64,000 bases of DNA. Origin: Sandaracinus amylolyticus. Lineage in GTDB: Bacteria > Myxococcota_A > Polyangia > Polyangiales > Sandaracinaceae. The stretch spans positions 1,984,001 to 2,048,000 of the forward strand of contig NZ_CP011125.1 of assembly GCF_000737325.1 (NCBI RefSeq), read 5' to 3'. Shown one piece after another: positions 31,414-48,735 of this stretch. Both the position numbers and the translations under genes were made by a program. Below the pieces are notes generated by a model. The model saw only the letters and a list, made by a program, of their open reading frames with translations. It searched no databases and had not been told where the DNA came from. Within the stretch, counting starts at the first letter, position 1. Each line of letters begins with the position of its first letter.

Positions 31414-31424
31414 GAGCAGTTCCA

Positions 31425-32006: not shown

Positions 32007-32046
32007 CCGCTCGACGCGCGATCGCCGCGAGGGTAGGGCTCGCGCC

Positions 32047-32643
32047 ATGAGCGAGACACTCCCGATCCGCTGTGCCTGCGGTCAGGTCCGCGGGCACGTC
32101 GACGTCGTGCCCGGCGGTGGCCAGCGCCTCGTCTGCTACTGCGACGACTGCCAGGCGTACGGGCGGTTCCTCGGGCGCGACGACGTGCTCGACGCGCGGG
32201 GCGGCACCGACATCTGGCAGACGCGTCCCTCGCTCGTCCGGATCACCGAGGGCGAGCTCGCGTCGATGCGCCTCTCGGATCGCGGGATGATCCGGTGGTA
32301 CGCGCGCTGCTGCCGCACGCCGATCGCGAACACGATGGTGTCGGCGGGCGCGCCGTTCGTCGGGATGCACCAGCGGTGCATCGGGGACGCGGACGGACGC
32401 AGGCGCGACGACGTGCTCGGCGCGCCGATCGCGAAGGTGCAGGGGCGCTTCGCGATCGGCGGCGTGCCCGAGGGCGTCGCGCCGACGGTGGGCGTCGGGA
32501 CGATCGCGCGGACGCTGCTGATGCTCGCGCGGTCGGCTCTGGCCCGAGGTGCGACACCGTCGCCGTTCTTCGATGCGCACACGAAGAAGCCGCGGATCGA
32601 GCCCGAGGTGCTGAGCGCCGCGGCGCGCGACGCGCTGCGCTGA
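32047..32643 (+). CDS. DUF6151-like protein (GFA-related, Cys-rich)
   Basis: A 198-residue cytosolic protein. IRCACGQVRGHV, then LVCYCDDCQAYGRFLG, and ARCCRTPIANTM provide paired cysteines arranged as in the Mss4/GFA fold, which binds zinc. I place it in the DUF6151 group rather than true glutathione-dependent formaldehyde-activating enzymes. The function is unknown. ATG 32047 gives MSETLPIRC. It sits 40 bp after the small lipoprotein. Confidence 0.8.
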   Translation: MSETLPIRCACGQVRGHVDVVPGGGQRLVCYCDDCQAYGRFLGRDDVLDARGGTDIWQTRPSLVRITEGELASMRLSDRGMIRWYARCCRTPIANTMVSAGAPFVGMHQRCIGDADGRRRDDVLGAPIAKVQGRFAIGGVPEGVAPTVGVGTIARTLLMLARSALARGATPSPFFDAHTKKPRIEPEVLSAAARDALR

Positions 32644-32670
32644 CCGGATTCGGCCGGCCCCGTGGGTCGT

Positions 32671-32694
32671 TGCCGCGCCGCGCCAGGCGCGGCA
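32671..32694 (+). terminator. 9-bp hairpin after DUF6151-like gene
   Basis: TGCCGCGCC and GGCGCGGCA pair perfectly around a 6-nt loop, 28 bp after the stop and before the sigma operon. No T-run, so strength is uncertain. Confidence 0.5.
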
Positions 32695-32754
32695 CGGTCT
32701 CGACGTGGTGCTCGCAAAAGAGTTGAGCCGGTCGGGGTGGGTCGCGCGCACTCC

Positions 32755-33345
32755 ATGAGCGACTCCGAGCCCATGAGCGCTGCCGCCGCCAAGATCGCCG
32801 CCGTCCCGGAGGACGACGCCACGCTCGCCACGCGCGCCGCGAGCGGCGACGAGCGCGCCTTCACGGCGATCTATCGCAAGCACTCGCGCTACGTGGCGGG
32901 CGTCGTCTATCGGCTCATGGGCGACGACGGAGAGCTCGACGACGTGGTGCAGGAGACGTTCGTCGCGGCGTCGGAAGGGCTCGCGAGCCTGAAGGAAGGC
33001 GGGACGCTGCGGGCCTGGCTCGTGACGATCGCGGTGCGCAAGGTCGCGCGCCGGCTCGCGCGGCGTCAGCGGCAGCGCTGGCTCGCGGGCATCTTCGGGC
33101 GCACCGAGCCGCGCGCGGTGACGCCGGAGGTGGAGGGCGAGGCGTACGCGCTCTACCAGGCGCTGGGAACGCTCTCGACCGAGCGGCGCGTGCCGTGGAC
33201 GCTCCATCACGTCGAAGGCCTGACGCTGCCGGAGGTCGCGGAGCACTGCGGCGTGTCGCTCGCGACGGTGAAGCGAAGGATCGCGGAAGCGGCGGCGCTG
33301 CTCGCGAAGCGAGGCTACGTGGTGAGCGCGGGAGGCCGCGAATGA
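32755..33345 (+). CDS. ECF-type RNA polymerase sigma factor
   Basis: A 196-residue ECF sigma factor from ATG 32755 (ATG 32773 also possible). Region 2: FTAIYRKHSRYVAGVVYRLM, ELDDVVQETFVAASEGLASL; region 4: WTLHHVEGLTLPEVAEHCGV, SLATVKRRIAEAAALL. Its stop overlaps the next start (ATGA), coupling it to a FecR-domain protein. The three-gene operon 32755-35488 would form a sigma, membrane anti-sigma/regulator and envelope protein unit, similar in order to the module at 59003-61760. The inducing signal is unknown. Confidence 0.92.
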   Translation: MSDSEPMSAAAAKIAAVPEDDATLATRAASGDERAFTAIYRKHSRYVAGVVYRLMGDDGELDDVVQETFVAASEGLASLKEGGTLRAWLVTIAVRKVARRLARRQRQRWLAGIFGRTEPRAVTPEVEGEAYALYQALGTLSTERRVPWTLHHVEGLTLPEVAEHCGVSLATVKRRIAEAAALLAKRGYVVSAGGRE

Positions 33346-34403
33346 GCGTCGAGCTCGAGCAGGCTCGGCGCGCCGAGCCGGACTGGGACGAGCTGCGCGA
33401 GCGGCGTGTGCTGGCGCGCGTGCTCGCGGCGCGCGGAGAGGGCGCGGCGCGGCGTCGTCGCGCGCGAGTCGCGGTCGCGTTCGGCGCGGGCGTGGCGGTC
33501 GCGGCGGCTGCGCTGCTCGTGTGGATGCGCCCGGCGACGACGCAGCCTTCGAGCGGCGGTGCGGTCGCGACGGTCGCGGTCGAGGGCGAGGCGGGCACGT
33601 CGCGCCCGGCGCGGCTGTCGCTGCGCGACGGATCCGAGGTGTTCCTCGCGGCGTCGGCCGACGTGCGCGTCGAGTCGGAGTCGGAGGGCGCGGTGCGCAT
33701 CGCGCAGCTCGCGGGCGAGGCGCGCTACGTGGTGAGCCATCGCCCGGAGCGCTCGTTCGTCGTGGTGGTCGAGGCCGTCGAGGTGCGGGTGCGCGGCACG
33801 CAGTTCGTCGTGCGGCGCGGCGAGCTCGAGGTGGAGGTCGAGGTCGAGGAAGGGCGCGTCGAGGTCGCGCGCGGTGACGACGCGAGCATGCTCGGCGCCG
33901 GTGATGCGCTGCGGGTGCGGATGCGCGCCGACGAGCCCACGCCCGAGCCCGAGATCGTGCCGGAGCCCGAGATCGCCCCGAGCGAGCCCGAGCCCGAGAC
34001 GTCGTCGGCGGAGCGCTCGCCGCGCCCCTCGCGTCGCGAGAGCATCGAGGAGCTGACCGCGCAGGCCGACGAGGCGCGTCGCGCCGGGCGGCTCGACGAT
34101 GCGGCGCGCGCGCTGCGTGCGGCGACGATCGCCGAGCCTCGCGATCCGCGGGTCGCGACCGCGTTCTTCACGCTGGGCCGGGTCGAGCGCGCGCGGGCGC
34201 GCGACGTCGCGGCCGCGGAGGCGTTCGAGGCGGCGTTCGCGCGCGCTCCGCACGGTGCGCTCGCCGAGGACGCGCTCGCGGAGGCGGCCGTGTCGTGGTC
34301 GGCCGCGGGGCGTCGCGAGCGGGCGCGCGCGTCGGCGCGACGCTATCTCGAGCTGCACCCCTCTGGCCTCTACGCAGAACGTGTGCGTCACTTGGCCGAG
34401 TGA
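33342..34403 (+). CDS. FecR-domain anti-sigma regulator with TPR tail
   Basis: A 353-residue membrane protein. The N-terminal 40 residues are cytoplasmic and basic; a transmembrane helix follows at about 46-61 (VAVAFGAGVAVAAAALLVWM). Residues about 75-195 form a FecR-type periplasmic domain (LSLRDGSEVFLAASADVRVE, AVEVRVRGTQFVVRRGELEV). A Pro/Glu linker leads to TPR-like helices at about 240-350 (ARRAGRLDDAARALRAAT). FecR proteins pass an envelope signal to the partner sigma factor. Translation is coupled on both sides (ATGA at the start, GTGA at the end). Confidence 0.85.
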   Translation: MSVELEQARRAEPDWDELRERRVLARVLAARGEGAARRRRARVAVAFGAGVAVAAAALLVWMRPATTQPSSGGAVATVAVEGEAGTSRPARLSLRDGSEVFLAASADVRVESESEGAVRIAQLAGEARYVVSHRPERSFVVVVEAVEVRVRGTQFVVRRGELEVEVEVEEGRVEVARGDDASMLGAGDALRVRMRADEPTPEPEIVPEPEIAPSEPEPETSSAERSPRPSRRESIEELTAQADEARRAGRLDDAARALRAATIAEPRDPRVATAFFTLGRVERARARDVAAAEAFEAAFARAPHGALAEDALAEAAVSWSAAGRRERARASARRYLELHPSGLYAERVRHLAE

Positions 34404-35488
34404 TCGGACCCGGTGAGGCGTGGCGTCGAAGTCCCGTCGTGGGCGCGGCGCTCGTGCTCGCGGCCTGGACGATCGCGCCGTCGACGGCGCGCGCGGATCT
34501 GACGATCGCTGCGCCGTCGTGCAGCGAGGTCGATCTCGCCGAGGTGCAGCGGCTGCTCGAGGTGGAGCTCGCCGACGTGACGCTCGCGTGGCGCGAGGCG
34601 TCGACGCCGGTGGTCCTGCTCGGGTGCACCGGCGACCGCGTGCGGATCGAGATCACCGATCCGATCACCGACAAGAGCGTCGCGCGCACGCTCGTGTGGC
34701 CGAGCGTCGATCGCGAGCGGGTGCTCGCGCTGGCGATCGCGCAGCTCTTCCTCACGTCGTGGCTCGAGCTGCTGATCGACGGTGACGCGGCGGTCGAGGG
34801 CGCGCCGGGCGCGGAGGAAGCCGAGCGGATGGCGCGCGGCGCGATGGAAGACGCGCAGCAGGCGCAGACGTCGCCACCACCCGAGCCGGTCGTCGAGGCG
34901 CCACGGCCGGAGCCCGTCGACGTCGTCGCGCCGCCCGTCACGCCGCCGGCCGAGGCGCCAGCGCCGCGGACCGACGCCGAGATCTCGCTCGAGGGAGGCA
35001 CGCGCATGCGCCTCGACGGCGAGACGCTCGCGACCGCGAGCGCCGGGCTCCGCGGTGCGATGGTGATCGACGACGCGATCGTCGTCGGGCTGCGCCTCGC
35101 GACCGAGTTCGCGCGCACCTCGCGGATGCGCGGCGACATCGACGTCTACGCCGCGACGCTCGGCATCGGCGCTGCCTGGCGCACGCCCAACCTCGGTCCG
35201 CTCTTCGCCGACCTCGGCGTGTGGGTCGCGGGTGACCTGCTCGTGCTCGAGGGGCGTCCGGCCTCCCTGGAGGTCGAGGGCGGCACCACGATCGCGATCG
35301 CGGCCGAGGCGCAGGTCGAGGTCGCGCCGTCGCTGCGCGTCGGGCCCGTGGTGATCTCGGTGCCGCTGGGGCTCGGCGTGCTCGCGTTCGCGCCCGATGG
35401 AGAGGTCACCGACGAGCCTCCCGTCATCGTCGGCGGGCCGTTTTTCGCGGCAGCGCTGCGCGTCGCCATCACGCCTTCACAATTCTGA
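34400..35488 (+). CDS. Secreted envelope protein of sigma/FecR operon
   Basis: A 362-residue exported protein starting at GTG 34400 within the FecR stop. A signal peptide (VVGAALVLAAWTIAPSTARA) is followed by a domain of about 120 residues with two cysteines (APSCSEVDLAEV, LLGCTGDRVRI), a Pro-rich linker (about 155-195) and a C-terminal half rich in alternating beta-strands (LRGAMVIDDAIVVGLRL, VGPVVISVPLGLGVLAF) that ends in Phe (PSQF), as outer-membrane barrels often do. A partner of the sigma system is likely. The protein at 57893-58984 has the same three-part plan. Confidence 0.72.
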   Translation: MIGPGEAWRRSPVVGAALVLAAWTIAPSTARADLTIAAPSCSEVDLAEVQRLLEVELADVTLAWREASTPVVLLGCTGDRVRIEITDPITDKSVARTLVWPSVDRERVLALAIAQLFLTSWLELLIDGDAAVEGAPGAEEAERMARGAMEDAQQAQTSPPPEPVVEAPRPEPVDVVAPPVTPPAEAPAPRTDAEISLEGGTRMRLDGETLATASAGLRGAMVIDDAIVVGLRLATEFARTSRMRGDIDVYAATLGIGAAWRTPNLGPLFADLGVWVAGDLLVLEGRPASLEVEGGTTIAIAAEAQVEVAPSLRVGPVVISVPLGLGVLAFAPDGEVTDEPPVIVGGPFFAAALRVAITPSQF

Positions 35489-35523
35489 GCCGGTCTCGAG
35501 CGGTGCGCGTCACTCCATCACCG
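35476..35523 (+). promoter_or_regulatory. Upstream element of surface cassette, copy 1
   Basis: Two blocks, TTCACAWTTCTGAGCCGGTC and CGTCACYCCATCACSG, separated by 12 variable bases, end at the base before the ATG at 35524. The same 48-bp layout recurs at 42030-42077. Here it overlaps the stop of the preceding gene. It is either a conserved promoter or a footprint of the duplication. Confidence 0.65.
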
Positions 35524-37932
35524 ATGACGTTCACTCGACGCTTCGTTCCCGTGTCCATCGCGGTCGCGCTGAGTGCGTGCGGCAGCGATCCCGTGCTCAC
35601 CGACCGCGACGGGGGCGCGGGCGACGCGTCCATCGGCGACGCGGAGGTGGTCGTCGACGGCGGTCGCGGTGATGCGGGGCCGCCCCCGGTCGACGGTGGA
35701 CCGGCGTGCGCGACGCGCGATCCGGAGTTCCCCGAAGATCCGACCGCGGGCGCGTGGCGGCAGGGGTACGGCAATCCCGGCGTCGGCGGCGACCTGCCGA
35801 ACGTGAACTCGATCGGCTTCGCGGCGGACGGCACCGTCTACATCGGCGGTGAGTTCACGACCGCCGGCTACCAGGCCGCGCGCAACATCGCGGCGTGGGA
35901 CGGCGCGACCGGCTGGCGCCCGATGGGCGAGGGCCTGAGCGGGCGCGTGCGATCGATCGCGGTCGCGTCCGACGGGCGCGTGTTCGCGGCCTACGCCGGC
36001 AACGATGATTGGGAGGCGCGCCGCATCGCGAGCTGGGACGGCACCGCGTGGACCGACCTCGCTGCGACGGACGATCCGGAGCTCGACTCGAGCGGGTTTC
36101 CGCTCGAGAACGACGCGATCGAGGAGATCGCGTTCGTCGGCGACACGCTGTTCGCGGTCGGGTCGTTCGACACGATCGAGGGCGTCGAGGCGCACGGCGT
36201 CGCGCGCCTCGACGGGACCACGTGGTCCGGTTACGCCGGGCTCGCGCCCGACAGAACGGTGGAAGCGATCTCCGCGACGTCGCTGACCGACGTGTGCATC
36301 GGCGGCAGCTTCTCGACGCTCGGCGTCGTCGCGTCACGCGGCGCGGCGTGCTGGAACGGCACGGCGTGGCAGGCGCGCCCGCTGCCGTTCGAGCACTACA
36401 TCGGCTTCTACGATCTCCAGCGTGATCCCGCCGACGGTTCGCTGGTCGGCGCGGGCGACTTCATGCTCGACGACACCGGCACGAACGGCGGCAGCATCGC
36501 GCGCTGGGTGGGCGATCGCTGGGAGCTGGTCGGTCGCGGCGTGATGAGCGTGTTCGGGCCCGGGAGCACGAGCGGGGTGCGCGGCGTCGCGTTCGTGCCG
36601 AGCGGCATGTACGTCGGGGGCGCGTTCCGCGCGATCGACGCGGAGGAGCCGCGGCCGGTCAACGCGGTCGCGCGGTGGCGCGACGGCGAGTGGGACGACA
36701 TCGGCGGCGTCTACGCCGAGGTCGGCTTCATCGGCGGCGACGACAACGTCTATCTCGTCGCGGGAGGCCCGGACGGCAGCGTGTACTTCGGCGGGCTCTT
36801 CACGCGCTCGGACAGCGTCGCCGTCTCGCACATCGTTCGCTACGACGGCACGTACTGGTCGGCGCTGCGCACGCCCGGCGAGGAGTACGAAGGCGTCGCG
36901 GGGTCGGTCGCCGCGCTCGAGCGCGAGGCGTCGTGCGCGATCTACGTCGGCGGCACGTTCAGCTACGCCGGCCCGATCCGCGCGAACAGCATCGCGCGCT
37001 ACACGCGCGATGGTGGCTACCAGGCGCTCGGCCAGGGCGTGAGCGGCAGCGTGCGCGCCATCGAGTCGCTCGGTGAAGGTCGCATCGTCGCGGGCGGCGC
37101 GTTCTCCGACGAGAGCGGCACCGTCTTCCGCAACGTCGCGCTCTGGGACGGATCGCAGTGGCGCGCGCTCGGCGGCAGCGTCGACGGCGAGGTGGCCGCG
37201 CTCGAGAGCGTGCCGATGGACTCGCCCGACTCGCGCGAGCTGATCTACGTCGGAGGCGACTTCGAGAACGCCGGTGAGGTGCCTGCGGAGGATTTCGCGA
37301 TGTGGGACGGCGAGGTCTGGACCGCGGTCGGCGGCGGATTCACCGGACACCTCGACGTCTGGGGCGAGGAGACGGGCACGTCGGTGCGCGCGTTGCTCCG
37401 AGATCCCGCCACCGGCGATCTCATCGTCGCGGGTGATTTCCGGGCCGCCGGGCCCGACGGGCTCGTGGTGAACAACATCGCACGCTGGGACGGCGAGCAG
37501 TGGCACGCCTACGGCGACGGCCTCGGGGCGCGCTCGCAGGTCCCGAACGCGCTGACCTTCTGGAACGGTCGCCTCGTCGCGGTCGGCGATTTCCAGAGCA
37601 GCGGCGAGACGACCGTCCGCCACGTCGCGGCGTGGAACGGCACGGCGTGGGAGGCGGTCGGCGAGCTCACGCTCGAGGGCTTCCCGCACGTGATCGCGGT
37701 CGAGGCGGTCGGCAGCGCGCTCTACGTCGGCGGCAGCATGCAGTTCGGCGAGGGCCAGGGCACGCACGTCGCGGTCTACGACGGCACGACGTGGGCGCCG
37801 CTCTCCGACGGCGCGAGCGATCTCGTCGAGGCGCTCGTCGGGATGGACGAGGGCGTGTACGTCGGCGGCACGTTCGACCGTACCGGTACGTCTCCGTCGG
37901 TCGGCCTCTCGCTCTGGCAGTTCGCGCCCTGA
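35524..37932 (+). CDS. WDG-repeat surface lipoprotein, cassette copy 1
   Basis: An 802-residue lipoprotein (lipobox VALSACG). A DGGAGDASIGDAE linker follows. The body is made of about a dozen repeats with the pattern YIGGEFTTAGYQ, then IAAWDGATGWRPMGEGL, which form a beta-propeller of kelch or delta-60-like type. ATG 35524 is preferred; GTG 35503 is an alternative. It is the first gene of the three-gene cassette, 26 bp before the CxxCH propeller gene. It closely resembles the protein from 42100. Surface display is likely; the ligand is unknown. Confidence 0.82.
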   Translation: MTFTRRFVPVSIAVALSACGSDPVLTDRDGGAGDASIGDAEVVVDGGRGDAGPPPVDGGPACATRDPEFPEDPTAGAWRQGYGNPGVGGDLPNVNSIGFAADGTVYIGGEFTTAGYQAARNIAAWDGATGWRPMGEGLSGRVRSIAVASDGRVFAAYAGNDDWEARRIASWDGTAWTDLAATDDPELDSSGFPLENDAIEEIAFVGDTLFAVGSFDTIEGVEAHGVARLDGTTWSGYAGLAPDRTVEAISATSLTDVCIGGSFSTLGVVASRGAACWNGTAWQARPLPFEHYIGFYDLQRDPADGSLVGAGDFMLDDTGTNGGSIARWVGDRWELVGRGVMSVFGPGSTSGVRGVAFVPSGMYVGGAFRAIDAEEPRPVNAVARWRDGEWDDIGGVYAEVGFIGGDDNVYLVAGGPDGSVYFGGLFTRSDSVAVSHIVRYDGTYWSALRTPGEEYEGVAGSVAALEREASCAIYVGGTFSYAGPIRANSIARYTRDGGYQALGQGVSGSVRAIESLGEGRIVAGGAFSDESGTVFRNVALWDGSQWRALGGSVDGEVAALESVPMDSPDSRELIYVGGDFENAGEVPAEDFAMWDGEVWTAVGGGFTGHLDVWGEETGTSVRALLRDPATGDLIVAGDFRAAGPDGLVVNNIARWDGEQWHAYGDGLGARSQVPNALTFWNGRLVAVGDFQSSGETTVRHVAAWNGTAWEAVGELTLEGFPHVIAVEAVGSALYVGGSMQFGEGQGTHVAVYDGTTWAPLSDGASDLVEALVGMDEGVYVGGTFDRTGTSPSVGLSLWQFAP

Positions 37933-37958
37933 AGCCGCAGAACGAGGAGCATGCCTCA

Positions 37959-40004
37959 ATGACTCTCCTCTCGAGACACGCGCAGTGGCTCGTGCCGCTC
38001 GCGCTCGCCTTCGGTGCATGCACCGAGCGCGGCGGCGATCCGCCGGACACGAGCGATGGCGGCAACGAGGTCGTCTCGCTCGAGCTCGATCCCGCGGAGG
38101 TCGAGCTGACGAGCGGCGACGGCTCGACGCCGACGGTCACGCTCCGCGCGTTCGCGCGCACGGTGCAGGGCGAGCGCGTCGAGGTCTCGCCGGAGAGCTG
38201 GACGCTCGCGCACGATCGCATCGGCTCGATCGACGAGCACGGGACGTTCACGGCGAGCGGGCGCGCCGGCGGCGAGGTGCAGGTCACCGCGCGTGTGCCC
38301 GGCGTGATCGCGCCGGTGGTCGGCCACGCGACGATCCGCGTGCGCCTGACGCTCTCGGTCCCGCTCGATCCGATGGTGCCGCCGACGCTCCCCGAGCGGT
38401 TCGACACGCTGCCCGAGGTCGAAGAGCCCTTCGAGTCGCCCGCGCTGCTCTATCCCCTCGAGGGCGCTCGCATGCCGAACAACGTCGGCGCGCCCGAGCT
38501 GCAGTGGGAGCCGTTCGCGCAGGCGGGCGACGCGTTCCGCGTCGTCATCGAGACGCCGCACGCGACCGTGCGCGCGTACACCTACGACGACGGGCGCACG
38601 TTCCGCGCGAGCTATCCGATCGATCGCAACACGTGGCGCGTCGTCGCGGACAGCGCGCTCGGCGAGGAGATCACGATCCGCGTCGATCGCATCCCGAGCG
38701 GCGGCAGCGAGGTCGTGCGCGGCACGCCGGTGACGATCTGGCTGAGCGAGGACGGCGTCTTCGGCACCGTCTACTACTGGCAGGTGCGCGTCGATCCGCA
38801 GGGCAGCGACGTGCTGCGCCTCGATGCGGCGAGCGGCACGCGCCAGAGCGTATTCGGCACCGAGTCGGGCGGCTGCGTCGGATGCCACGCGCTGTCGCAC
38901 GACGGACGCCAGCTCTCCGCGACGCTCGACTCGCGCGGCGTGCAGTGGACCACCGCAGTGGTCGACACGACGAGCGCCAGCGCGCCCCCGCCCGACGTGA
39001 TGGGCCCGTTCACGCCGGCCTATCACTTCATGGCGTTCTCGCCCGACGCGACGCGCATCCTCGCGAGCCGCCCGCTCGCGCCCGCGACGCGCGACGTGAC
39101 CGCGCTCTTCCTGCTCGACGGAGCGACCGGCGCGGAGATGGCCGCGAGCGGTCTGCCCACCGGTCAGGCGGGCTACCCGACGTGGTCGCCCGACGGCGCG
39201 CGCGTCGCGTGGATGGACGGCGGCAGTGACGGTCCGAGCGGCACGCGCAGCCCGACGCGCATCGTCGTGAGCGACGTCGCCGAGGGCGACGCGTTCGGCG
39301 AAGCGCGCGTGGTGCACGACGGCGCGAGCCTCGCGTCGGCGCCCGAGGGCGGGAGCACGGACTCGCGCCCGACGTGGTCGCCGGACTCGCGCTTCCTCGC
39401 GTTCGCGCACGGCACGAGCTCGGTGTCGTCGGTGCAGTTCGACGGTGAGCCGCCGACCGCGTCGCTCTATCTGGTCTCGCGCGACGGCGGCACGCCGATC
39501 CGGCTCGTGCGCGGCATGGGCGACGGCGGTCCCGTCGATGCGTTCTGGCCCGTGTTCTCGCCGTTCGTGACCGAGGAGCGCGATGGGTCGCGGCTCTTCT
39601 GGCTCGCGTTCTACTCGCGCCAGGACTTCGGGAACGCGCGCGCCGGGACGGCGGGCACGTCGCGACGCCAGCTCTGGGTCATGGCGATCGATCCCGCGGC
39701 CGCCGAGCGTGGTGAAGATCCGAGCTCGCCTCCGTACTGGCTGACGGGCCAGGACACGCGCGCCGACGACATCGCGGCGCTCTGGGCGCCGACGAGCTGC
39801 CGCGGTCGCGACGAGTCGTGCAGCACGTCGTCGGAGTGCTGCTCGGGCGAGTGCGCGGCGGCGGACCCGTCGATGCCCGACGTGCTCACGTGCCGCCCTC
39901 CGACGGTGTGTCGTCGCTCGGGCGACTCGTGCGAGGACGCGAGCGACTGCTGCGACGGCCTCGAGTGCAACCTCGGCGTCTGCGGATACGTCCCCCCGAT
40001 TTGA
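37959..40004 (+). CDS. Propeller lipoprotein with CxxCH haem motif, cassette copy 1
   Basis: A 681-residue lipoprotein (lipobox LAFGACT). The first 130 residues look like an Ig-like domain (LDPAEVELTSGDGSTPTVTL). Residues about 280-580 are TolB/WD40-type propeller blades (SPDATRILASRP, YPTWSPDGARVAWMDGG). A single CVGCH at 306-310, followed by ALSHDG, would bind haem c. The C-terminal 60 residues are Cys-rich (CSTSSECCSGECAAADP). GAGGAG at 37944-37949 precedes ATG 37959. The paralogue is the gene at 44496. Electron transfer is possible, but one haem site alone does not prove it. Confidence 0.85.
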   Translation: MTLLSRHAQWLVPLALAFGACTERGGDPPDTSDGGNEVVSLELDPAEVELTSGDGSTPTVTLRAFARTVQGERVEVSPESWTLAHDRIGSIDEHGTFTASGRAGGEVQVTARVPGVIAPVVGHATIRVRLTLSVPLDPMVPPTLPERFDTLPEVEEPFESPALLYPLEGARMPNNVGAPELQWEPFAQAGDAFRVVIETPHATVRAYTYDDGRTFRASYPIDRNTWRVVADSALGEEITIRVDRIPSGGSEVVRGTPVTIWLSEDGVFGTVYYWQVRVDPQGSDVLRLDAASGTRQSVFGTESGGCVGCHALSHDGRQLSATLDSRGVQWTTAVVDTTSASAPPPDVMGPFTPAYHFMAFSPDATRILASRPLAPATRDVTALFLLDGATGAEMAASGLPTGQAGYPTWSPDGARVAWMDGGSDGPSGTRSPTRIVVSDVAEGDAFGEARVVHDGASLASAPEGGSTDSRPTWSPDSRFLAFAHGTSSVSSVQFDGEPPTASLYLVSRDGGTPIRLVRGMGDGGPVDAFWPVFSPFVTEERDGSRLFWLAFYSRQDFGNARAGTAGTSRRQLWVMAIDPAAAERGEDPSSPPYWLTGQDTRADDIAALWAPTSCRGRDESCSTSSECCSGECAAADPSMPDVLTCRPPTVCRRSGDSCEDASDCCDGLECNLGVCGYVPPI

Positions 40005-40097
40005 TCCGACTCGCACCTTCGCTTGGTGGACGTGCACGCGTGCCGGTGCGCGCGCTCGTGCACGTCTTGTCTTCGAGCCTCGTTGCGTGAGGTCCCC

Positions 40098-41978
40098 ATG
40101 CGTCGTCTCGCTGCTCTGCTCCCGATCGCGCTCTCGCTCGTGACGTCCGCGTGCATCGTCGAGGAGGGTCCTCTCCTCCCGATGCGCGACGCGGGCGTCG
40201 ACGCGCCGATGCCCGACGCCGGCCCGATCGACGGCGGCTTCTCGTGCACGCCCGACGCGCCCGGCTGCTTCGGGTACGTGCACTACGTGTGCGGCGACGA
40301 CGGCGCGTCGCGCGAGGACGAGCAGGTCTGCGAAGGCGGGTGCGATCCCGCGATGGGCTGCATCGAGTGCGTGCCCGGCTCGTTCCGGTGCGACGGAACC
40401 GTCTCGACGCGCTGCGACGAGGACCACCGCTGGCAGCCGGTGCGCGACTGCAGCGAGTGGAGCTCGGTGTGCGGCGGCTCGGGCATCTGCGACGACGCGT
40501 GCGGCCTCGCGGAGGCGGTGCGCTCCAACGTCGGCTGCGAGTACTGGCCGGTGCCGCTCGCGAACATCCGCGAGCTGAACTCGCGCGCGTACGACTTCCG
40601 CGTCGTCGTCGCGAACCCCGGCGCGACCCGCGCGACGGTCTCGATCTCGCGCGCGGGCCGCACGATCGAGACGACGCAGGTCACGCCCGGCGGCGTCGCC
40701 GAGATCTCGCTGCCGTGGATCGAGGGCGTGTCGTTCCCGTTCGCGACGAACGATTGGGAGAGCGTCGTCACCGCGAACGGCGCGTACCGCCTGACCTCGT
40801 CGGTGCCGGTGATCGTCACGCAGTTCAACCCGTTCCACTACGCGTCGGCGAGCGCCGACTACTCGTTCACGAACGACGCGTCGCTGCTGCTCCCCTCGCA
40901 CGTGCTCGGTCGCGAGCACGTCGGCACCTCGTACGTGCCGTTCTCGATCAGCGACGACTTCGATCCCACCGACGAGCATCCGGCCGAGAGCGCGCGCTAT
41001 CCGGGCTACCTCGCGGTGATCGGCGTCTCCGCGGAGCCCACCGCGGTCGAGATCGAGGTCGCGGGCGACGTCGCCGCGGACGCGGGTGGACGCTGGGAGG
41101 CGACCGCGCGTGGCGGCACGATCCGCTTCACGCTCGCGCGAGGCGAGGTCGCGCAGATCGCGGCCGCGGTGCCGCCCGTGTGCGCGCCGGATCGCCCCGG
41201 CTTCCGCGACGCCGAGCCCGACGAGCCGCGCGTCACCGCGTACTGCCGCGAGGAGCAGTTCGACCTCACGGGGTCGCGCGTGCACAGCGATCGCCCCGTC
41301 GCGGTGTTCGGCGGCCACACGTGCACGAACATCCCGTACGACATCGTCGCGTGCGATCACCTCGAGACGCAGCTCGCGCCCGTCGAGACCTGGGGCAAGC
41401 GCTTCTCGACGATGCCGATGCGCGATCCCGACACCGCGATCGCGAACCTGCTGCGCATCACCGCCGCGCACGACGGCACGACCGTCACGCTCGATCCTCC
41501 GCCGCGCAGCGGCGGCGAGGTGGCGCTCGCCGCGGGCGAGCACGTCGAGATCGAATTCGATCGCGCGATGACGATCACCTCGTCGCTCCCGGTGCAGGTC
41601 GCGCAGCTGCTCGTCGGGCAGAACATCACCGACCCGCCGCTCGAGCGCGGTGATCCCGGGATGACGACGCTCGTGCCCGAGGAGCAGTACCGGCGCGACT
41701 ACGTGTTCGCGATGCCGTCGTCGTACACGCCGCTCGCGCGCGGTCAGTCGTATCTGCTCGTCTCCCGCGAGCCGGGCGCGGAGATCACGCTCGACGGACG
41801 CACGCTCGAGGCCGAGTGGACGCGCGTCGGTGATCGAGAGCTCGCGATCGTTCCGGTGCCCGCGGGCAATCATCGTCTCACCGCGGCGTCGCCCGTCGGG
41901 CTCATCGCGTACGGCCTCGGGCTCTACACGTCGTACGCGTATCCCGCGGGCCTCGACCTGCGCGTCATCCCGATCTGA
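40098..41978 (+). CDS. IgGFc-binding-domain lipoprotein, cassette copy 1
   Basis: A 626-residue lipoprotein: ATG 40098 after GAGG gives the lipobox VTSACIV. A Cys-rich head follows (PGCFGYVHYVCGDDG, CIECVPGSFRCDG). From about residue 150 the IgGFc-binding-protein domain begins (GCEYWPVPLANI, FRVVVANPG, NPFHYASASADY, TNDASLLLPSHVLG) and continues to the C-terminal YTSYAYPAGLDLRVIPI. This domain is common in secreted proteins of myxobacteria and may bind glycans or proteins on the cell surface. It ends the first cassette; a terminator follows at 42006. The paralogue lies at 46750. Confidence 0.88.
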   Translation: MRRLAALLPIALSLVTSACIVEEGPLLPMRDAGVDAPMPDAGPIDGGFSCTPDAPGCFGYVHYVCGDDGASREDEQVCEGGCDPAMGCIECVPGSFRCDGTVSTRCDEDHRWQPVRDCSEWSSVCGGSGICDDACGLAEAVRSNVGCEYWPVPLANIRELNSRAYDFRVVVANPGATRATVSISRAGRTIETTQVTPGGVAEISLPWIEGVSFPFATNDWESVVTANGAYRLTSSVPVIVTQFNPFHYASASADYSFTNDASLLLPSHVLGREHVGTSYVPFSISDDFDPTDEHPAESARYPGYLAVIGVSAEPTAVEIEVAGDVAADAGGRWEATARGGTIRFTLARGEVAQIAAAVPPVCAPDRPGFRDAEPDEPRVTAYCREEQFDLTGSRVHSDRPVAVFGGHTCTNIPYDIVACDHLETQLAPVETWGKRFSTMPMRDPDTAIANLLRITAAHDGTTVTLDPPPRSGGEVALAAGEHVEIEFDRAMTITSSLPVQVAQLLVGQNITDPPLERGDPGMTTLVPEEQYRRDYVFAMPSSYTPLARGQSYLLVSREPGAEITLDGRTLEAEWTRVGDRELAIVPVPAGNHRLTAASPVGLIAYGLGLYTSYAYPAGLDLRVIPI

Positions 41979-42005
41979 TCGCCGCGTCATCGTGAGCGCG
42001 TGGAG

Positions 42006-42031
42006 AGAGCGGCGCATCGCGCCGCTCTTTT
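42006..42031 (+). terminator. Intrinsic terminator after first surface cassette
   Basis: AGAGCGGCGC and GCGCCGCTCT form a perfect 10-bp stem with a 3-nt ATC loop, followed by TTTT. It is 27 bp after the IgGFc-domain stop and just before the second cassette's upstream element. This is the clearest rho-independent terminator in the window. Confidence 0.85.
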
Positions 42032-42077
42032 CACATTTCTGAGCCGGTCGTGTCGGGTCTCCGTCACCCCATCACGG
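42030..42077 (+). promoter_or_regulatory. Upstream element of surface cassette, copy 2
   Basis: The same two blocks and 12-bp spacing as at 35476-35523 (TTCACATTTCTGAGCCGGTC, then CGTCACCCCATCACGG). It ends 22 bp before the ATG at 42100 because a stretch including GAGGAGG has been added. Conservation outside coding DNA argues for a shared promoter or operator. Confidence 0.65.
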
Positions 42078-42099
42078 CTCGCGAGGAGGCGGCATCTCC

Positions 42100-44499
42100 A
42101 TGACGCTCGTTCGCTCTCTGCTTTTCTTCTCCGCTGCCGTCGCGCTCTGTGCGTGCAACGACGGCCCCTTGCTCTCCGACCGCGACGGCGGCGTGACCGG
42201 AGACGCGCAGCTCTTCGACGCAGAGGTCGCGCCGGTCGACGGCGGCGACGGCGGATCGCGCGTCGACGCCGGCCCGCCGTGCGTGGATCTCGAGCCCGAC
42301 GCGCCGACCGATCCGACGCAGGGCGAGTGGGAGAGTCGCTTCGCCGTCCCGGGCGTCGGCGGTGATCTCCCGAACGTCAGCGAGATCGCGTTCGGGCCGA
42401 GCGGCGAGGTGTACATCGCGGGCACGTTCGACGCGGCCGGCTACGCGCCCGCGAAGAACGTCGCCGTGTGGACCGCGGCCGGCGGCTGGCGCGCGCTCGG
42501 TGAGGGGCTCGACGGACTCGTCCGCGCGCTCGCGGTCGACGGCGCGACCGTGTGGGCCGCGTGGTCGGCGCAGGGCGAGTGGGACACCACGCGCCTGTCG
42601 CGCTGGGACGGAACGTCGTGGAGCGAGGTCGCGATCAGCGAGGGCGCGATCGTCGATCTCGCGATCGTCGAGTCCACGCTGATCGCCGCCGGCCACTTCA
42701 CGCGCATCGGCGGCATCGACGCGCACTTCCTCGCGCGCTTCGACGGAACGACGTGGAGCGGGTGGGCCGATCTCGCGCCCGACCAGGGCTTCGAGACGAT
42801 CTCGGCGCGCTCGCTCGAAGACATCTGCGTCGGCGGCGCGTTCACGTCGCTCGGCGCGATCGAGGCGCGCTCCGTCGCGTGCTGGAACGGCGTCGCGTGG
42901 AGCGCGCGCAGCATGCCGATGTCGTACTGGATGGTGAACCAGCTCACGCGCGACCGCGACGGCGTGACGCTGATCGCCGGGGGCAACTTCGCCCTCACGA
43001 CGCGCGGCGAGCTGATGGAGCCCGCGATGGAAGGCAGCATCGCGCGCTGGACCGGCGATCGCTGGGAGCTGATCGGCAACGGCGTGTCGGATCTCTTCGG
43101 CGGGCCTGGTCTCGTGCGCGGCGTCGCGGTCGTCGATCACGGTCTCTACGTCGGCGGCTCGTTCGACTGGGCCGGCGGGTACGAGACGCTCGCGACGCAG
43201 CACGTCGCGCGCTGGGACGGGACGCGCTGGCACGACATCGGGGGCCTCTGGAAGGACATCGGCGCGTCGATCGACGAGAACGTCTGGTTCGTCGCCGCGG
43301 GGCCCGACGGCAGCGTGTACTTCGGCGGTCTGTTCACGCACGCGGGCAGCACGCGCGCGTCGCACGTCGTGCGCTACGACGGCACGTACTGGTCTTCGCT
43401 GCGCACGCCCGGAGAGCGCACCGAGGGCATCGCCGGCAACGTGTTCGCGATGGATCGAGTCGGCACGTGCGCGCTCTATCTCGGCGGTGACTTCGAGTAC
43501 GTCGGCGACGTGCGCGCCGACAACGTCGCGCGCTACACGCGCGAGGGCGGGTTCGAGACGCTCGGCCGCGGCGTGCTCGGCGTGGTGAACGCGATCGAGG
43601 CGACCGCCGACGGCGCGCGTGTGTACGCCGGCGGCGAGTTCGTCGACAACGACACCGGGACGCTGTTCGCGAACCTCGCGTCGTGGGACGGCGCACGCTG
43701 GAGCGAGGTCGGCGGCGGCACCAACGGGCCGGTGCGCGCGCTGCTGCACATGCTCGGCGAAGGCGCGGACGATCCCGATCTGCTCTTCGTGGGCGGCGAC
43801 TTCACCGAGGTCGGCGGAGGCACGCCGGCGAACGGTCTCGCGGTGTGGGACGGCGAGTCGTGGACCGGCATCACCGGGCTCGTCGGCTGGCACTTCGACG
43901 GAGCCGAGGAGCCGAATGCGGCGAGCGTCTTCGCGATCGCGCGCGATGCCGACACCGAGGATCTCTACGTCGCGGGCTCGTTCGCGCGCGCCGGAGAGCT
44001 CGAGCTCATGAACGTGGCGCGCTGGGACGGCGAGGCGTGGCACGCGCTCGGCGCCGGGCTCGCGCGGCCGTTCGAGGTCGTGTGGTCGCTCGTGTGGTGG
44101 CGCGACCGTCTCGTCGCGGGCGGCACGATCCATGGCAGCGGCGAGGAGCCGATCGAAGCGGTCGCCGCGTGGAACGGCACGGCGTGGGAGAACGTCGGCG
44201 CGGGCCTCTCGAGCCGCACCGCGCCCGAGCACTCTGGCCGCGCGGTCTACTCGCTCCACGTGCACGGTGATCACCTCTACGCGGGCGGCTCGTTCAGCAT
44301 CGCGCCCGGCGAGCCGAACGAGTCGATCGGCGTGTTCGACGGCACCACGTGGCGCGGCTTCGCGGGCGGCGTGAGCGACCTGGTGCACGGGCTCGTCGTG
44401 ATGGACGACGGCCTCTACGTGGGCGGCGGGTTCGCGCGCGCGGGCACGGGACCGAGCGTCGGCCTCGCGCACTTCGCGTTCGGCGGAGGCGAGCGATGA
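42100..44499 (+). CDS. WDG-repeat surface lipoprotein, cassette copy 2
   Basis: A 799-residue lipoprotein, start ATG 42100 after GAGGAGG. The signal sequence (SLLFFSAAVALCACN) precedes an Asp/Gly-rich linker and about a dozen WDG repeats (VYIAGTFDAAGYAPAKNVAV, GWRALGEGLDGLVRALAV), colinear with the protein at 35524. Its stop overlaps the next start (ATGA), tighter than in the first copy. The paralogues differ along their whole length, so the duplication is not recent. A cell-surface role is inferred. Confidence 0.82.
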   Translation: MTLVRSLLFFSAAVALCACNDGPLLSDRDGGVTGDAQLFDAEVAPVDGGDGGSRVDAGPPCVDLEPDAPTDPTQGEWESRFAVPGVGGDLPNVSEIAFGPSGEVYIAGTFDAAGYAPAKNVAVWTAAGGWRALGEGLDGLVRALAVDGATVWAAWSAQGEWDTTRLSRWDGTSWSEVAISEGAIVDLAIVESTLIAAGHFTRIGGIDAHFLARFDGTTWSGWADLAPDQGFETISARSLEDICVGGAFTSLGAIEARSVACWNGVAWSARSMPMSYWMVNQLTRDRDGVTLIAGGNFALTTRGELMEPAMEGSIARWTGDRWELIGNGVSDLFGGPGLVRGVAVVDHGLYVGGSFDWAGGYETLATQHVARWDGTRWHDIGGLWKDIGASIDENVWFVAAGPDGSVYFGGLFTHAGSTRASHVVRYDGTYWSSLRTPGERTEGIAGNVFAMDRVGTCALYLGGDFEYVGDVRADNVARYTREGGFETLGRGVLGVVNAIEATADGARVYAGGEFVDNDTGTLFANLASWDGARWSEVGGGTNGPVRALLHMLGEGADDPDLLFVGGDFTEVGGGTPANGLAVWDGESWTGITGLVGWHFDGAEEPNAASVFAIARDADTEDLYVAGSFARAGELELMNVARWDGEAWHALGAGLARPFEVVWSLVWWRDRLVAGGTIHGSGEEPIEAVAAWNGTAWENVGAGLSSRTAPEHSGRAVYSLHVHGDHLYAGGSFSIAPGEPNESIGVFDGTTWRGFAGGVSDLVHGLVVMDDGLYVGGGFARAGTGPSVGLAHFAFGGGER

Positions 44500-46532
44500 C
44501 GGCGAGGATCTCGATCTCCATCGGCGTGGCGCTCGCGCTCGCGGCGTGCACGACCGGCGAGGCGCCGCTCGGTGAGCCCGACGGAGGCCTGCAGACCGCG
44601 AGCCTCGTGCTCGAGCCCGCCGAGGTCGAGCTCACCAGCGTCGAAGGCGCGATGCCGACCGCCAGCTTCCGCGCGTACGCGCGCACGCTCGACGGCGAGA
44701 TGGTCGAGGTGACGCCCGAGTCGTGGCGGCTCACGCACGACCGCATCGGCGCGGTCGACACCAGCGGCACGTTCACCGCGAACGGGCGCGCCGGCGGCAT
44801 GGTCGAGGTCGTCGCGCGCGCGCCCGGCGCGATCGCCGCGATCGAGGGTCGCGCGACGATCCGCGTGCACATCGAGCGCGAGGCCCCGCTCGATCCGAGC
44901 GTGCCTCCGAGCGTGCGCGACCGCTTCGACCTCCCCGAGGTGGAAGATCCGTTCGAGAGCGTGCTCCTCGAGTACCCGCTCGACGGCGCGCGCATGCCGA
45001 ACAACGTCGCGCCGCCGGTCGTGCAGTGGGATCCGCTCCCGCGCGGCGGCGCCGACGACGCGTATCGCATCGTGCTCTCGAGCCCCTACGCGACGGTGCG
45101 CGCCTACGCCTACGACAGCGGGCGCGGCTTCACGTCGAGCTGGGCGAGCGATCGCGAGACGTGGCGCATCCTCGCGGACAGCGCGCGCGGCGAGGAGCTC
45201 GCGCTGCGCGTCGATCGTGTCGCGTCCGGCGGCACCACCGTCTTCCGAGGCCAGCCGGTGCGCGTCTGGCTCAGCGAGGACGGCCTCTACGGCACCGTCT
45301 ACTACTGGCAGGTCCGACCCGACCCGCAGTCGAGCGACGTGTTCCGGCTCGACGCCGCGACCGGCGCGCGCGCGAGCGTGTTCGGCACCGAGAGCGGCGC
45401 GTGCGTGGGCTGTCACTCGCTCTCGCACGACGGGCGCCGCCTCGCGTCGACGCTCGACTCGCGCGCCGCGACGTGGGCGACGACGATCGTCGACACCGCG
45501 AGCAGCAGCGCGCCCCCGCCGGATCTGCTCGGGCCCTTCGAGCCCTCGTATCACTTCCTCGCGTTCCGACCCGACGGCGCGCGCATCCTCGCGAGCCGCG
45601 CCGAGGGCACCGAGGCGAGCGGCGTCTCGCGCCTCGTGATGCTCGACGGAGCGACCGGTCTGCCGGCCGCGGCGTCGGGCATCCCCGAGGGCGAAGCGGG
45701 CTATCCCGCGTGGTCGCCGGACGCCGAGTGGGTCGCGTGGATGCAGGGCGGCGGCGACGGTCCGCGCGGCACGCGCGCGCCGACGAGCATCGTGGTCGCG
45801 CCCGTCGAAGGCGACGACGCGCTCGGCGCACCGCGCGCCGTGCACGAGGGCGCGTCGCTCTCGGAGTCGTTCGAAGGCGGATCGACCGACTCGCGCCCGA
45901 CGTGGTCGCCCGACTCGCGCTTCCTCGCGTTCGCGCACGGCACGAGCTCGGTGTCCGCGACGGAATTCGGCAGCGAGCCGCCGCGCGCCGCGCTCTACGT
46001 CGTCTCGCGCGACGGTGGCGATCCGATCCGCCTCGAGCGCGGCATGGGCGTCGAGGGCCAGATCGACGCGTTCTGGCCCGTCTTCTCGCCCTTCGTCACC
46101 GAAGAGGCCGACGGCACGCGCCTCTACTGGCTCGCGTTCTACTCGCGCCAGGACTACGGCAACGCGTACGCCGGCACGCGCGGCACCGGACGTCGTCAGC
46201 TCTGGGTGACCGCGATCGATCCGACGCTCGTCGAGCGCGGCGAGGACCCGAGCTCGCCGCCGTACTGGCTGCCGGGCCAGGACACGCGCGCCGACGACAT
46301 CGCCGCGCTGTGGGCGCCCACCGGGTGCCGCGGGCAGGGCGAGTCGTGCAGCACGTCGAGCGAGTGCTGCTCGGGCGAGTGCGCGGCGGCGGACCCGTCG
46401 ATGCCCGACGTGCTCACCTGCCGGCCGCCGAGCGTGTGCCGTCGCGGCGGCGAGTCGTGCGAGACCGCGGCCGACTGCTGCAGCGGCCTCGAGTGCAACC
46501 TCGGCGTCTGCGGATACGTCCCGCCGATCTGA
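44496..46532 (+). CDS. Propeller lipoprotein with CxxCH haem motif, cassette copy 2
   Basis: A 678-residue lipoprotein (lipobox LALAACT) colinear with the one at 37959: Ig-like head, propeller blades (WSPDAEWVAWMQGG), haem motif CVGCH at 303-307 followed by SLSHDG, and a Cys-rich tail (CSTSSECCSGECAAADPSMP). Keeping CxxCH in both diverged paralogues suggests the haem site is functional. Translation is coupled to the previous gene. The exact partner and redox role are unknown. Confidence 0.86.
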   Translation: MTARISISIGVALALAACTTGEAPLGEPDGGLQTASLVLEPAEVELTSVEGAMPTASFRAYARTLDGEMVEVTPESWRLTHDRIGAVDTSGTFTANGRAGGMVEVVARAPGAIAAIEGRATIRVHIEREAPLDPSVPPSVRDRFDLPEVEDPFESVLLEYPLDGARMPNNVAPPVVQWDPLPRGGADDAYRIVLSSPYATVRAYAYDSGRGFTSSWASDRETWRILADSARGEELALRVDRVASGGTTVFRGQPVRVWLSEDGLYGTVYYWQVRPDPQSSDVFRLDAATGARASVFGTESGACVGCHSLSHDGRRLASTLDSRAATWATTIVDTASSSAPPPDLLGPFEPSYHFLAFRPDGARILASRAEGTEASGVSRLVMLDGATGLPAAASGIPEGEAGYPAWSPDAEWVAWMQGGGDGPRGTRAPTSIVVAPVEGDDALGAPRAVHEGASLSESFEGGSTDSRPTWSPDSRFLAFAHGTSSVSATEFGSEPPRAALYVVSRDGGDPIRLERGMGVEGQIDAFWPVFSPFVTEEADGTRLYWLAFYSRQDYGNAYAGTRGTGRRQLWVTAIDPTLVERGEDPSSPPYWLPGQDTRADDIAALWAPTGCRGQGESCSTSSECCSGECAAADPSMPDVLTCRPPSVCRRGGESCETAADCCSGLECNLGVCGYVPPI

Positions 46533-46538
46533 GCTTGC

Positions 46539-46640
46539 GGGAGGGGTCTTGGAAGACCCCTCCCCCCGACCGGCAAAGCCGGATCGGGGCCCCCCTCCCC
46601 AAACGCTGCGCGCGGGGCCCCAGCCCCGCTTGCTCTCGCG
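46539..46640. repeat. Cluster of GC-rich hairpins, REP-like element or terminator
   Basis: First hairpin: GGGAGGGGTCTT / AAGACCCCTCCC (46539-46564), perfect 12-bp stem. Second: CCCGACCGGC-AAA-GCCGG-A-TCGGG (46565-46588), one bulged A. Third, near 46617-46640: GCGGGG / CCCCGC. Such composite hairpins are typical of dispersed intergenic repeats in GC-rich genomes and could stop transcription after the propeller gene. The first cassette has only 93 bp here and no such hairpin. Confidence 0.7.
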
Positions 46641-46749
46641 CGCGAGCGCGGCCTGGGCTCGCTCGCTCGACGGAACGCGCGCTCGCGTGAGCGCGACGGC
46701 CGCTCGTGCGCGCTCTTGCACGTCTCGAGCTTCGCTTCGTGAGGTCCTC

Positions 46750-48606
46750 ATGCGTCGTCTCGCTTGCCTTCTGCTCTCGCTCGCCACCTCCGCGTGCGTC
46801 GTCGACGACGGCCCGCTCCTCCCGAGCCGCGACGCCGGCACCGACGCGCCGCAGCCCGACACCGGTCCCGGCGACGCCGGCTTCGCCTGCGAGCCCGATG
46901 CGCCCGGCTGCTTCGGCTACGTCCACTACGTCTGCGGCGCCGACGGCCACTCGCGCACCGACGAGGAGCTCTGCGAAGGCGGCTGCGATCCCGCGACGGG
47001 CTGCATCGAGTGCGTCCCCGGCTCGTTCCGCTGCGACGGCGACGTCTCGATGCGCTGCGACGAGGAGCATCGATGGCTGCCCGTCCGCGACTGCTCCGAG
47101 TGGGACGTCGCGTGCGGCGGCTCCGGCCTCTGCGACGACGCGTGCGGTCTCGCCGAGGCCGTGCGCTCGAACGTCGGCTGCGAGTACTGGGCGGTGCCGC
47201 TCGCGAACACCCTCGAGCTCGATCGCGACGTGTTCGACTTCCGCGTCGTCGTGGCGAACCCGAGCGCCGCGCCCGCGGACGTCACGATCACGCGCGGCGC
47301 GCGCCTGATCGCGCGCGAGCGCGTCGCGCCCGGAGGTCTCACCGAGATCCCGCTGCCCTGGGTCGACGGCGTGTCGTTCCCGATCGAGCCCAACGACTGG
47401 GAGAGCGTCACGACCGCCGACGGCGCGTACCGCGTGATGTCGTCGCGCCCCGTGATCGTCTCGCAGTTCAACCCGTTCCACTACGCGCGCCTGACGCGCA
47501 ACTCGTTCAGCAACGACGCGTCGCTGCTGCTCCCCTCGCACGTCCTCGGCCGCGATCACGTCGCTGCCTCGTACGTGCCGATCTCGACCGTCGGCACCAA
47601 CTTCGACGGCGAGCGCGTCTACCACCGCGCGCCCGGCTACGTCGCGCTCGTGGGCACCTCGAGCGAGCCGACGAACGTCGAGATCGTCGTCGGCGCGCAC
47701 GTCGCCGCCGACTCCGGCGGTCGCTGGCCCGAAACGCCGCGCGGCGGGACGATTCGCTTCACGCTCGCGCGCGGCGAGGTCGCGCAGGTCGCGGCCGCGG
47801 TCCCGCCCGACTGCGGCCCCGAGCGCCCCGTGTTCAGCAACGCCAGCCCCGAGCCCGAGATCGTCGCCGGCGCGTGCCGCGAGGACGAGTACGACCTCAC
47901 CGGCTCGCGCGTCACGAGCGATCGCCCGATCTCCGTCTTCGGCGGACACGTCTGCGCGTTCGTCCCCTTCGACGTCGGCATGTGCGATCACCTCGAGACG
48001 ACGCTCGCGCCCGTCGAGACCTGGGGCCGCAGCTACCAGACGATGCCGATGCGCGATCCCGACACCGACGTGCCCAACACGCTGCGCATCATCGCCGCGC
48101 ACGACGGCACCGAGATCACGATCGCCCCCGACGTGCGCCTCGAGGACGCGTCGCTCGACGCGGGCGAGTGGATCGAGGTCACGTTCGATCATCCCGTCTC
48201 GATCACCGCGAGCCTGCCGATCCAGGTCGTGCAGCTCTCGGTCGGTCAGATGATCACCGACCCGCCGCTCGAGCGCGGCGATCCGTCGATGACGCACCTC
48301 GTGCCCACCGAGCAGTTCCGCCGCGACTACGTCTTCGTCACGCCGTCCTCGTACACGCCGGTCGTCAACGGCCAGTCGTACCTCGTGATCTCGCGCGAGC
48401 CGAACGAGCCGATCACGCTCGACGGCCGCGCGCTCGAGGCGACGTGGACGACCGTCGGTGAGCGCGAGATCGCGACCGTGCCCGTCCCGGGCGGCACGCA
48501 CGAGGTGCGAGCGGCGACGCCGGTGGGCGTGATGGTGTACGGCCTGGGCCTCTACACGTCGTACGCCTACCCCGCGGGGCTCGATCTCCGCGTGATCCCC
48601 ATCTGA
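46750..48606 (+). CDS. IgGFc-binding-domain lipoprotein, cassette copy 2
   Basis: A 618-residue lipoprotein from ATG 46750 after GAGG, with lipobox LATSACV. Cys-rich head and IgGFc-binding-type domain follow the same order as the protein at 40098 (CFGYVHYVCGADGHS, GCEYWAVPLANT, SNDASLLLPSHVLG, YTSYAYPAGLDLRVIPI). The last 30 residues are almost identical between copies while the middle differs, as expected for a fixed fold with a variable binding face. It is the last gene before mreC. Confidence 0.88.
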   Translation: MRRLACLLLSLATSACVVDDGPLLPSRDAGTDAPQPDTGPGDAGFACEPDAPGCFGYVHYVCGADGHSRTDEELCEGGCDPATGCIECVPGSFRCDGDVSMRCDEEHRWLPVRDCSEWDVACGGSGLCDDACGLAEAVRSNVGCEYWAVPLANTLELDRDVFDFRVVVANPSAAPADVTITRGARLIARERVAPGGLTEIPLPWVDGVSFPIEPNDWESVTTADGAYRVMSSRPVIVSQFNPFHYARLTRNSFSNDASLLLPSHVLGRDHVAASYVPISTVGTNFDGERVYHRAPGYVALVGTSSEPTNVEIVVGAHVAADSGGRWPETPRGGTIRFTLARGEVAQVAAAVPPDCGPERPVFSNASPEPEIVAGACREDEYDLTGSRVTSDRPISVFGGHVCAFVPFDVGMCDHLETTLAPVETWGRSYQTMPMRDPDTDVPNTLRIIAAHDGTEITIAPDVRLEDASLDAGEWIEVTFDHPVSITASLPIQVVQLSVGQMITDPPLERGDPSMTHLVPTEQFRRDYVFVTPSSYTPVVNGQSYLVISREPNEPITLDGRALEATWTTVGEREIATVPVPGGTHEVRAATPVGVMVYGLGLYTSYAYPAGLDLRVIPI

Positions 48607-48699
48607 TCGCGTGACGGCGCGCACGGCGACCCTCTTGGCGCCGCGAAATGCGGGATTGGCGCCCCCCCCGCCCGTCGGTTACACAGTCCGGTCGCTCCG

Positions 48700-48714
48700 G
48701 CCCCTTTCAGGGGC
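48700..48714 (+). promoter_or_regulatory. Small hairpin upstream of mreC
   Basis: GCCCC-TTTCA-GGGGC, 22 bp before the mreC GTG. It may affect translation or be a terminator for the preceding cassette; the 129-bp gap holds no better candidate and the mreC promoter is not obvious. Confidence 0.35.
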
Positions 48715-48735
48715 TGGCCCTGGCGAGACGGTGCC

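Follow-up and report, generated by a model that had tools for sequence, protein, structure and literature searches.

Two copies of a three-gene lipoprotein cassette stand head to tail in the genome of Sandaracinus amylolyticus, a soil bacterium of the myxobacterial group, and the arrangement raises the question of whether the three products belong together, what turns their genes on, and what they might do. The window analyzed here is a stretch of 64,000 nucleotides (positions 1984001-2048000 of a single 10,327,335-base contig). The genome of S. amylolyticus DSM 53668 has been reported at 10.33 Mb (PMC5010890), in a paper that mentions neither sigma factors nor lipoproteins; in our literature searches, no paper described a bacterial IgGFc/Rax2 lipoprotein system and none brought together FecR, extracytoplasmic function (ECF) sigma factors and Sorangium. 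We found that the cassettes directly follow an operon for an ECF sigma factor and a FecR-domain protein, that one promoter-like motif precedes the sigma gene and both cassettes, and that the same trio of genes occurs in other genomes. The explanation we favor, with a confidence somewhat above even, is a surface-lipoprotein regulon under ECF/FecR control, in which the operon of genes A, B and C was duplicated with its promoter; the gene content, the duplication, the linkage elsewhere, the clade structure and the conservation of the motif are established by sequence comparison.

Two head-to-tail lipoprotein cassettes

The six lipoprotein genes form two cassettes in the order A-B-C, as follows:

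35524..37932, + strand: A1, Rax2/DUF5122 propeller lipoprotein (Pfam; low-confidence model; about 14 four-stranded units predicted)
37959..40004, + strand: B1, lipoprotein with Ig-like domain, TolB-type propeller and Cys-rich, double-knot-like tail
38874..38888, + strand: CVGCH of B1 (residues 306-310)
40098..41978, + strand: C1, IgGFc_binding (PF17517) lipoprotein
42002..42032, + strand: terminator-like hairpin with TTTT, between C1 and A2 (-24.2 kcal/mol, z -5.6)
42100..44499, + strand: A2, second copy of A, 48% identical to A1
44496..46532, + strand: B2, second copy of B, with an ATGA overlap with A2, 69% identical to B1
45402..45416, + strand: CVGCH of B2 (residues 303-307)
46750..48606, + strand: C2, second copy of C, 68% identical to C1

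The protein identities hold over the full length of each pair (E = 0.0 for all three), and the DNA of the two cassettes is colinear along its whole length at 71-78% identity, with direct-repeat blocks spaced 6.52-6.64 kb apart. The repeat unit takes in DNA 5' of A, where a matching stretch (TTCACA..TTCTGAGCCGGTC) lies at ~35476 and ~42030. A sequence-only reading of this DNA had described a trio duplicated in tandem, with diverged, colinear products that all carry lipoboxes; we recovered all six genes at the positions it gave, and a regular expression applied to the N-termini called a lipobox-like sequence in six of six (LSAC in A1, FGAC in B1, TSAC in C1, LCAC in A2, LAAC in B2 and TSAC in C2). 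The coupling that it noted in the second copy is present as the ATGA overlap of A2 and B2; A1 and B1 are separated by a 26-nt gap instead. The hairpin between C1 and A2 has an identical sequence upstream of A2 in a congener (G024), and, being strong and accompanied by TTTT, it suggests that the second cassette is probably a transcription unit of its own.

Both A proteins exceed the Pfam cut-offs of Rax2 (77.9 bits for A1 and 58.1 for A2; cut-off 28.8) and DUF5122 (45 and 28.4 bits; cut-off 27). Eukaryotic Rax2 is a fungal polarity protein, whereas A is a bacterial lipoprotein with about 14 predicted blades; the strand pattern of the A1 model, which was built from two sequences at a pLDDT (predicted local distance difference test) of 64.5, fits this number of four-stranded blades. 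The B proteins match PD40 barely over the cut-off. The B1 model (pLDDT 82.8) comprises an Ig-like domain (38-133), a second beta region, a propeller and a Cys-rich tail. Its propeller is nearest to TolB (Z 26.8 to 4pwz, 2.6 A over 269 residues); however, B differs from TolB in the Ig-like domain, in the tail and in a CxxCH within the propeller, and B1 and B2 score only 18 and 16 bits against the NCBIfam equivalog model propeller_TolB, which requires 343. The cysteine spacing of the tail resembles that of double-knot peptides (a weak match, E 3e-4); residues 614-675 of B1 contain two CC-containing repeats like inhibitor cystine knots, retained in most B proteins. C1 and C2 match IgGFc_binding at 242.5 and 243.4 bits (cut-off 25.6) over profile positions 1-297 of 297, and depart from that family in being lipoproteins with a Cys-rich N-terminal part and in their linkage to A and B. 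The family name does not imply that they bind IgG Fc, and a sequence search of solved structures with C returned nothing convincing.

The sequence-only reading had suggested that the trio is perhaps an adhesion or electron-conducting surface machine. In an electron-conducting machine, B would hold a c-type heme and the trio would move electrons across the outer membrane. The CxxCH of B is indeed invariant in 32 of 32 B-family proteins, exactly one in each, as expected for a covalent mono-heme or a structural site, and in B1 it sits in the first blade region of the propeller, where the confidence of the model is moderate. However, a trio has one CxxCH at most, with none among 21 A and 33 C proteins; the candidates for a distal axial ligand, M172 and H453, are present in 19/32 and 18/32 B proteins, respectively; no multiheme cytochrome gene was recognized near the cassette; and by fold B best matches TolB propellers. 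Electron conduction was rejected for want of heme motifs and appears highly improbable.

Inheritance of the trio

To place the cassettes among relatives, we compared the window's own genome (G000) with genomes represented by one assembly per species, many of them fragmented; genes beyond the window were called by a simple method based on codon usage, and some of their start sites are uncertain. In the congener, the same six genes stand in the same order, between the same upstream and downstream neighbors. The orthologs are 84-94% identical versus 48-69% for the paralogs, which indicates that the duplication is older than the split of S. amylolyticus and the congener and that the two copies have remained separate. 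We saw no gene conversion between them, each copy being nearer to its congener ortholog than to its paralog. The ratio of nonsynonymous to synonymous substitution rates (dN/dS) between the two genomes was 0.29-0.32 for A1 and A2, 0.13-0.16 for B and 0.17-0.22 for C, and 0.02-0.07 for mreC, mreD, PBP2 and RodA. By these estimates, purifying selection acts on all of these genes, and within the trio A evolves fastest.

A rearranged form of the trio, with A and B overlapping on one strand and C divergent beside them, was found in G041, which belongs to another family, and in G002 and G036, from another genus of the family of Sandaracinus. Thus the three families do occur as a trio elsewhere, in tandem in the congener and rearranged in these genomes, contrary to the outcome that the sequence-only reading had named as its refutation. 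The overlap or near-overlap of A and B is retained in three genera. In a tree of 32 B proteins, those of the trios form one clade (support 99, with a long G002 branch), and the C proteins of the trios and of an A-C pair fall into one clade of 15 (support 98) that also holds unlinked C proteins; both values are from the Shimodaira-Hasegawa-like approximate likelihood ratio test (SH-aLRT), a quick method. Neither A nor C was found near any of 55 other named B loci in other genomes (up to 9 kb on each side, less on short contigs), suggesting that only one B subfamily shows this linkage.

By a rough binomial estimate, the chance of finding 4 of ~12 A lineages within 6 kb of a C is ~1e-5; it should be noted that the phylum-wide search scored two A candidates per genome, so that A counts are lower bounds. 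A scan of genome contigs with A1 found no relatives, and a separate genome search did find them. The window's genome holds 10 C, at least 8 B and 6 A loci. A adjoins C at two further loci there, as A-C, overlapping by 4 nt, at 0.32 Mb and as C-A at 1.90 Mb, and two A loci stand alone. A and C are thus often partners, to which one B subfamily has been added. Two stricter views were ruled out: the trio is not an indivisible unit, as A-C pairs without B and solo A occur in the same genome, and neither B nor C serves as a marker of the trio, both being widespread and mostly unlinked.

The location of the block invites another explanation. Between mreB and mreC lie 17.3 kb (window positions 31414-48735) that hold the whole sigma operon and both cassettes, and unrelated lipoprotein genes could have gathered in this permissive gap and been co-duplicated without any joint function. 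The gap does hold unrelated inserts in other Sandaracinaceae (G002 and G012 among the genomes compared); the wide, mostly unlinked distribution of B and C and the occurrence of A without B are as such accretion would predict. However, two other genera carry the trio at different sites and in a different arrangement, and the trio has its own B clade; the close A-B junction has persisted across genera; and a promoter motif is common to four A loci. We therefore regard plain accretion as unlikely, and the comparison supports the trio as a real inherited unit, more than a local accretion. A functional connection to the mre genes was set aside as well: in G030, G041 and G053 mreB directly adjoins mreC, so the link is probably positional only.

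Near C genes in three genomes we observed related genes (L072:13074-14036, L074:17139-17999 and L033:12114-13091; 30-33% identity), of which the last is a helix-turn-helix protein by Pfam; a regulator of the divergent trio form is possible. The same L033 locus, in the window's genome, carries five overlapping genes, mostly for lipoproteins and including IgGFc_binding and VWA proteins (L033:2687-11838).

The sigma-FecR operon and a shared motif

What could turn both cassettes on together? The DNA upstream of A1, and the starts of both cassettes, contain the following:

32724..32751, + strand: promoter-like motif TGAGCC-N16-GCGCAC before the sigma gene, conserved in the congener
32755..33345, + strand: ECF sigma factor gene (Sigma70_r2 and Sigma70_r4_2 over cut-off; homologs beside FecR-HYP-A in G391 and G053)
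33342..34403, + strand: FecR-domain anti-sigma-like protein with TPR repeats (FecR PF04773, 50 bits versus a cut-off of 24; 4-nt overlap with the sigma gene)
34400..35488, + strand: HYP, an exported protein with a probably barrel-like C-terminal half ending in Phe (4-nt overlap with the FecR gene)
35486..35513, + strand: promoter-like motif TGAGCC-N16-CGTCAC before A1, its TGA being the stop codon of HYP
42040..42067, + strand: promoter-like motif TGAGCC-N16-CGTCAC before A2

This operon (32755-35488) directly precedes A1. The sequence-only reading took the conserved gene order and the coupling in the second copy as an argument for a complex of the three products, a step beyond the inherited unit that the comparison supports, and missed the upstream operon, which is the best explanation of the coupling. 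The sigma factor has regions 2 and 4 only and is paired with a FecR-domain gene, as defines an ECF sigma/FecR pair; the FecR protein shares 47% aligned identity with its G053 counterpart. HYP has no Pfam match over cut-off, is conserved after FecR in G053 and G391, and has matches in 25 of 379 genomes of the phylum; an outer-membrane barrel is suggested by the exported start and by a C-terminal half that is rich in strands and ends in Phe. The order sigma-FecR-HYP-A is conserved in G053 and G391, of another family, without B and C there. As in FecI-FecR signaling, the ECF sigma gene overlaps a FecR-domain gene, and genes for an exported protein and for surface-protein targets come after it. 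Unlike that system, the operon lacks a TonB-dependent receptor with a signaling domain (none by Pfam among the nine genes of 32755-48606), its FecR carries TPR repeats, its outputs are lipoproteins, and its motif is TGAGCC-N16-NNNCAC. An Rfam scan of the window and a scan for sigma-70-type promoters gave no matches.

The motif, with a spacer of exactly 16 nt, stands before the sigma gene, A1, A2, the distant A-C pair (-10 element GGGCAC), a solo A (CGCGAC, a near-match) and a lipoprotein of the S1-protease type. All six sites are conserved in the congener, at 36/36 positions of the -35, 34/36 of the -10 and 77/96 of the spacers. A whole-genome scan returned 14 sites versus 3 for the reversed pattern. 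The genome has six sites that start TGAGCCGGTC and combine TGAGCCGG with a NAC-type -10 in this pattern, and each of the six is followed, at a distance of 31-98 bp, by a start codon on the correct strand; several of the remaining sites fall inside genes and look like background. The sixth motif gene encodes a trypsin-like (Trypsin_2) lipoprotein (L210:4288-5929), with the site kept in L211 and conserved in the congener. A trypsin-like lipoprotein gene also lies directly upstream of the solo A (L029, 5921-7015).

Outside the genus, the motif stands before both sigma and A in G391, and in G053 before A, with a TGAGCT variant at sigma. By hand count, TGAGCC with CAC precedes sigma in 8 of 13 other sigma-FecR-HYP modules versus ~8 of 1,138 other genes, an approximate comparison because upstream lengths and background locus sets differ. 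Polyangia modules L225, L226 and L235 share the gene order and carry the motif before sigma and before an adjoining large lipoprotein; they differ in that these lipoproteins are not A, B or C. Two of them are paralogous modules of the window's genome (L225:1-6403 and L226:3714-13001), with lipoproteins of more than 1,000 residues. We infer, with good support from the sequences, that the motif is the promoter of the local ECF sigma factor, and the two cassettes and the sigma operon are probably turned on together, as a small surface-coat program.

Several observations weigh against this. The pattern was written after the sites had been seen and is therefore fitted to them. The G041 and G002 trios have no motif and no sigma-FecR operon close by, which means that the regulator does not accompany every trio; A alone is present in many other genomes. 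No motif was found upstream of the A genes L028 and L040, nor of C1, C2 and B2, and the -10 of the solo A is weaker (not NCAC). In addition, A1, A2, the paired A and the solo A are paralogs, and their sites are not fully independent; thus the sigma, protease and other-family sites carry most weight.

ECF/FecR control would also suit an envelope-stress regulon, in which sigma-FecR senses damage to the outer membrane and the lipoproteins reinforce or survey the envelope, with no external ligand. The position beside mreC-mreD-PBP2-RodA would fit, as would the trypsin-like lipoprotein with the same motif and the resemblance of the B propeller to TolB. However, the mre location is specific to S. 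amylolyticus and its congener, the sigma-A operon lying elsewhere in G053 and G391, and A is the fastest-evolving of the three (dN/dS 0.29-0.35), which would better suit an exposed recognition protein; this last argument is weakened by another lipoprotein (21292) that evolves as fast as A. We consider this reading rather unlikely, though less so than accretion.

A possible surface-coat switch

Under the regulon that we favor, the ECF sigma factor (32755) would be held by a FecR-type anti-sigma protein in the membrane (33342), which probably receives its input from the exported, barrel-like HYP (34400). Once free, sigma would activate both the operon that encodes it and a limited set of surface-lipoprotein units sharing the motif: A1-B1-C1, A2-B2-C2 (from its own promoter, after the terminator), the A-C pair, the solo A and one trypsin-like lipoprotein. 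A, B and C would be held by lipid anchors and are probably on display at the outer membrane. There, A and C, plus B where present, may work as a recognition or adhesion assembly, and the two cassette copies, as diverged paralogs, may give different specificities. Display on the outer surface, a physical complex and a part in adhesion or recognition are suggested by the lipoboxes, the propeller and IgGFc domains, the co-inheritance and the faster evolution of A. A broader proposal, which we put forward tentatively and hold a little short of even, is that Polyangia possess a distinct ECF-FecR-barrel class with an autoregulatory TGAGCC-N15..19-CAC, used as parallel switches that each serve large surface lipoproteins of their own, and that one such switch in Sandaracinus controls a duplicated propeller/propeller/IgGFc complex, which would form a changeable surface coat.

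Genomes of the myxobacterial kind encode very many lipoproteins with unassigned roles, and a promoter motif linking a defined set of them to a named sigma factor would open their function to direct testing. For a group whose social and predatory behavior is well known, the linked trio provides a specific surface-assembly candidate.

Elsewhere in the window (58969-60414 and 60411-61760), another frame resembling an ECF sigma gene scores 62 bits to the local sigma model and is followed by genes for a small protein and a lipoprotein; on the opposite strand, the gene call at 57893-59446 may be wrong.

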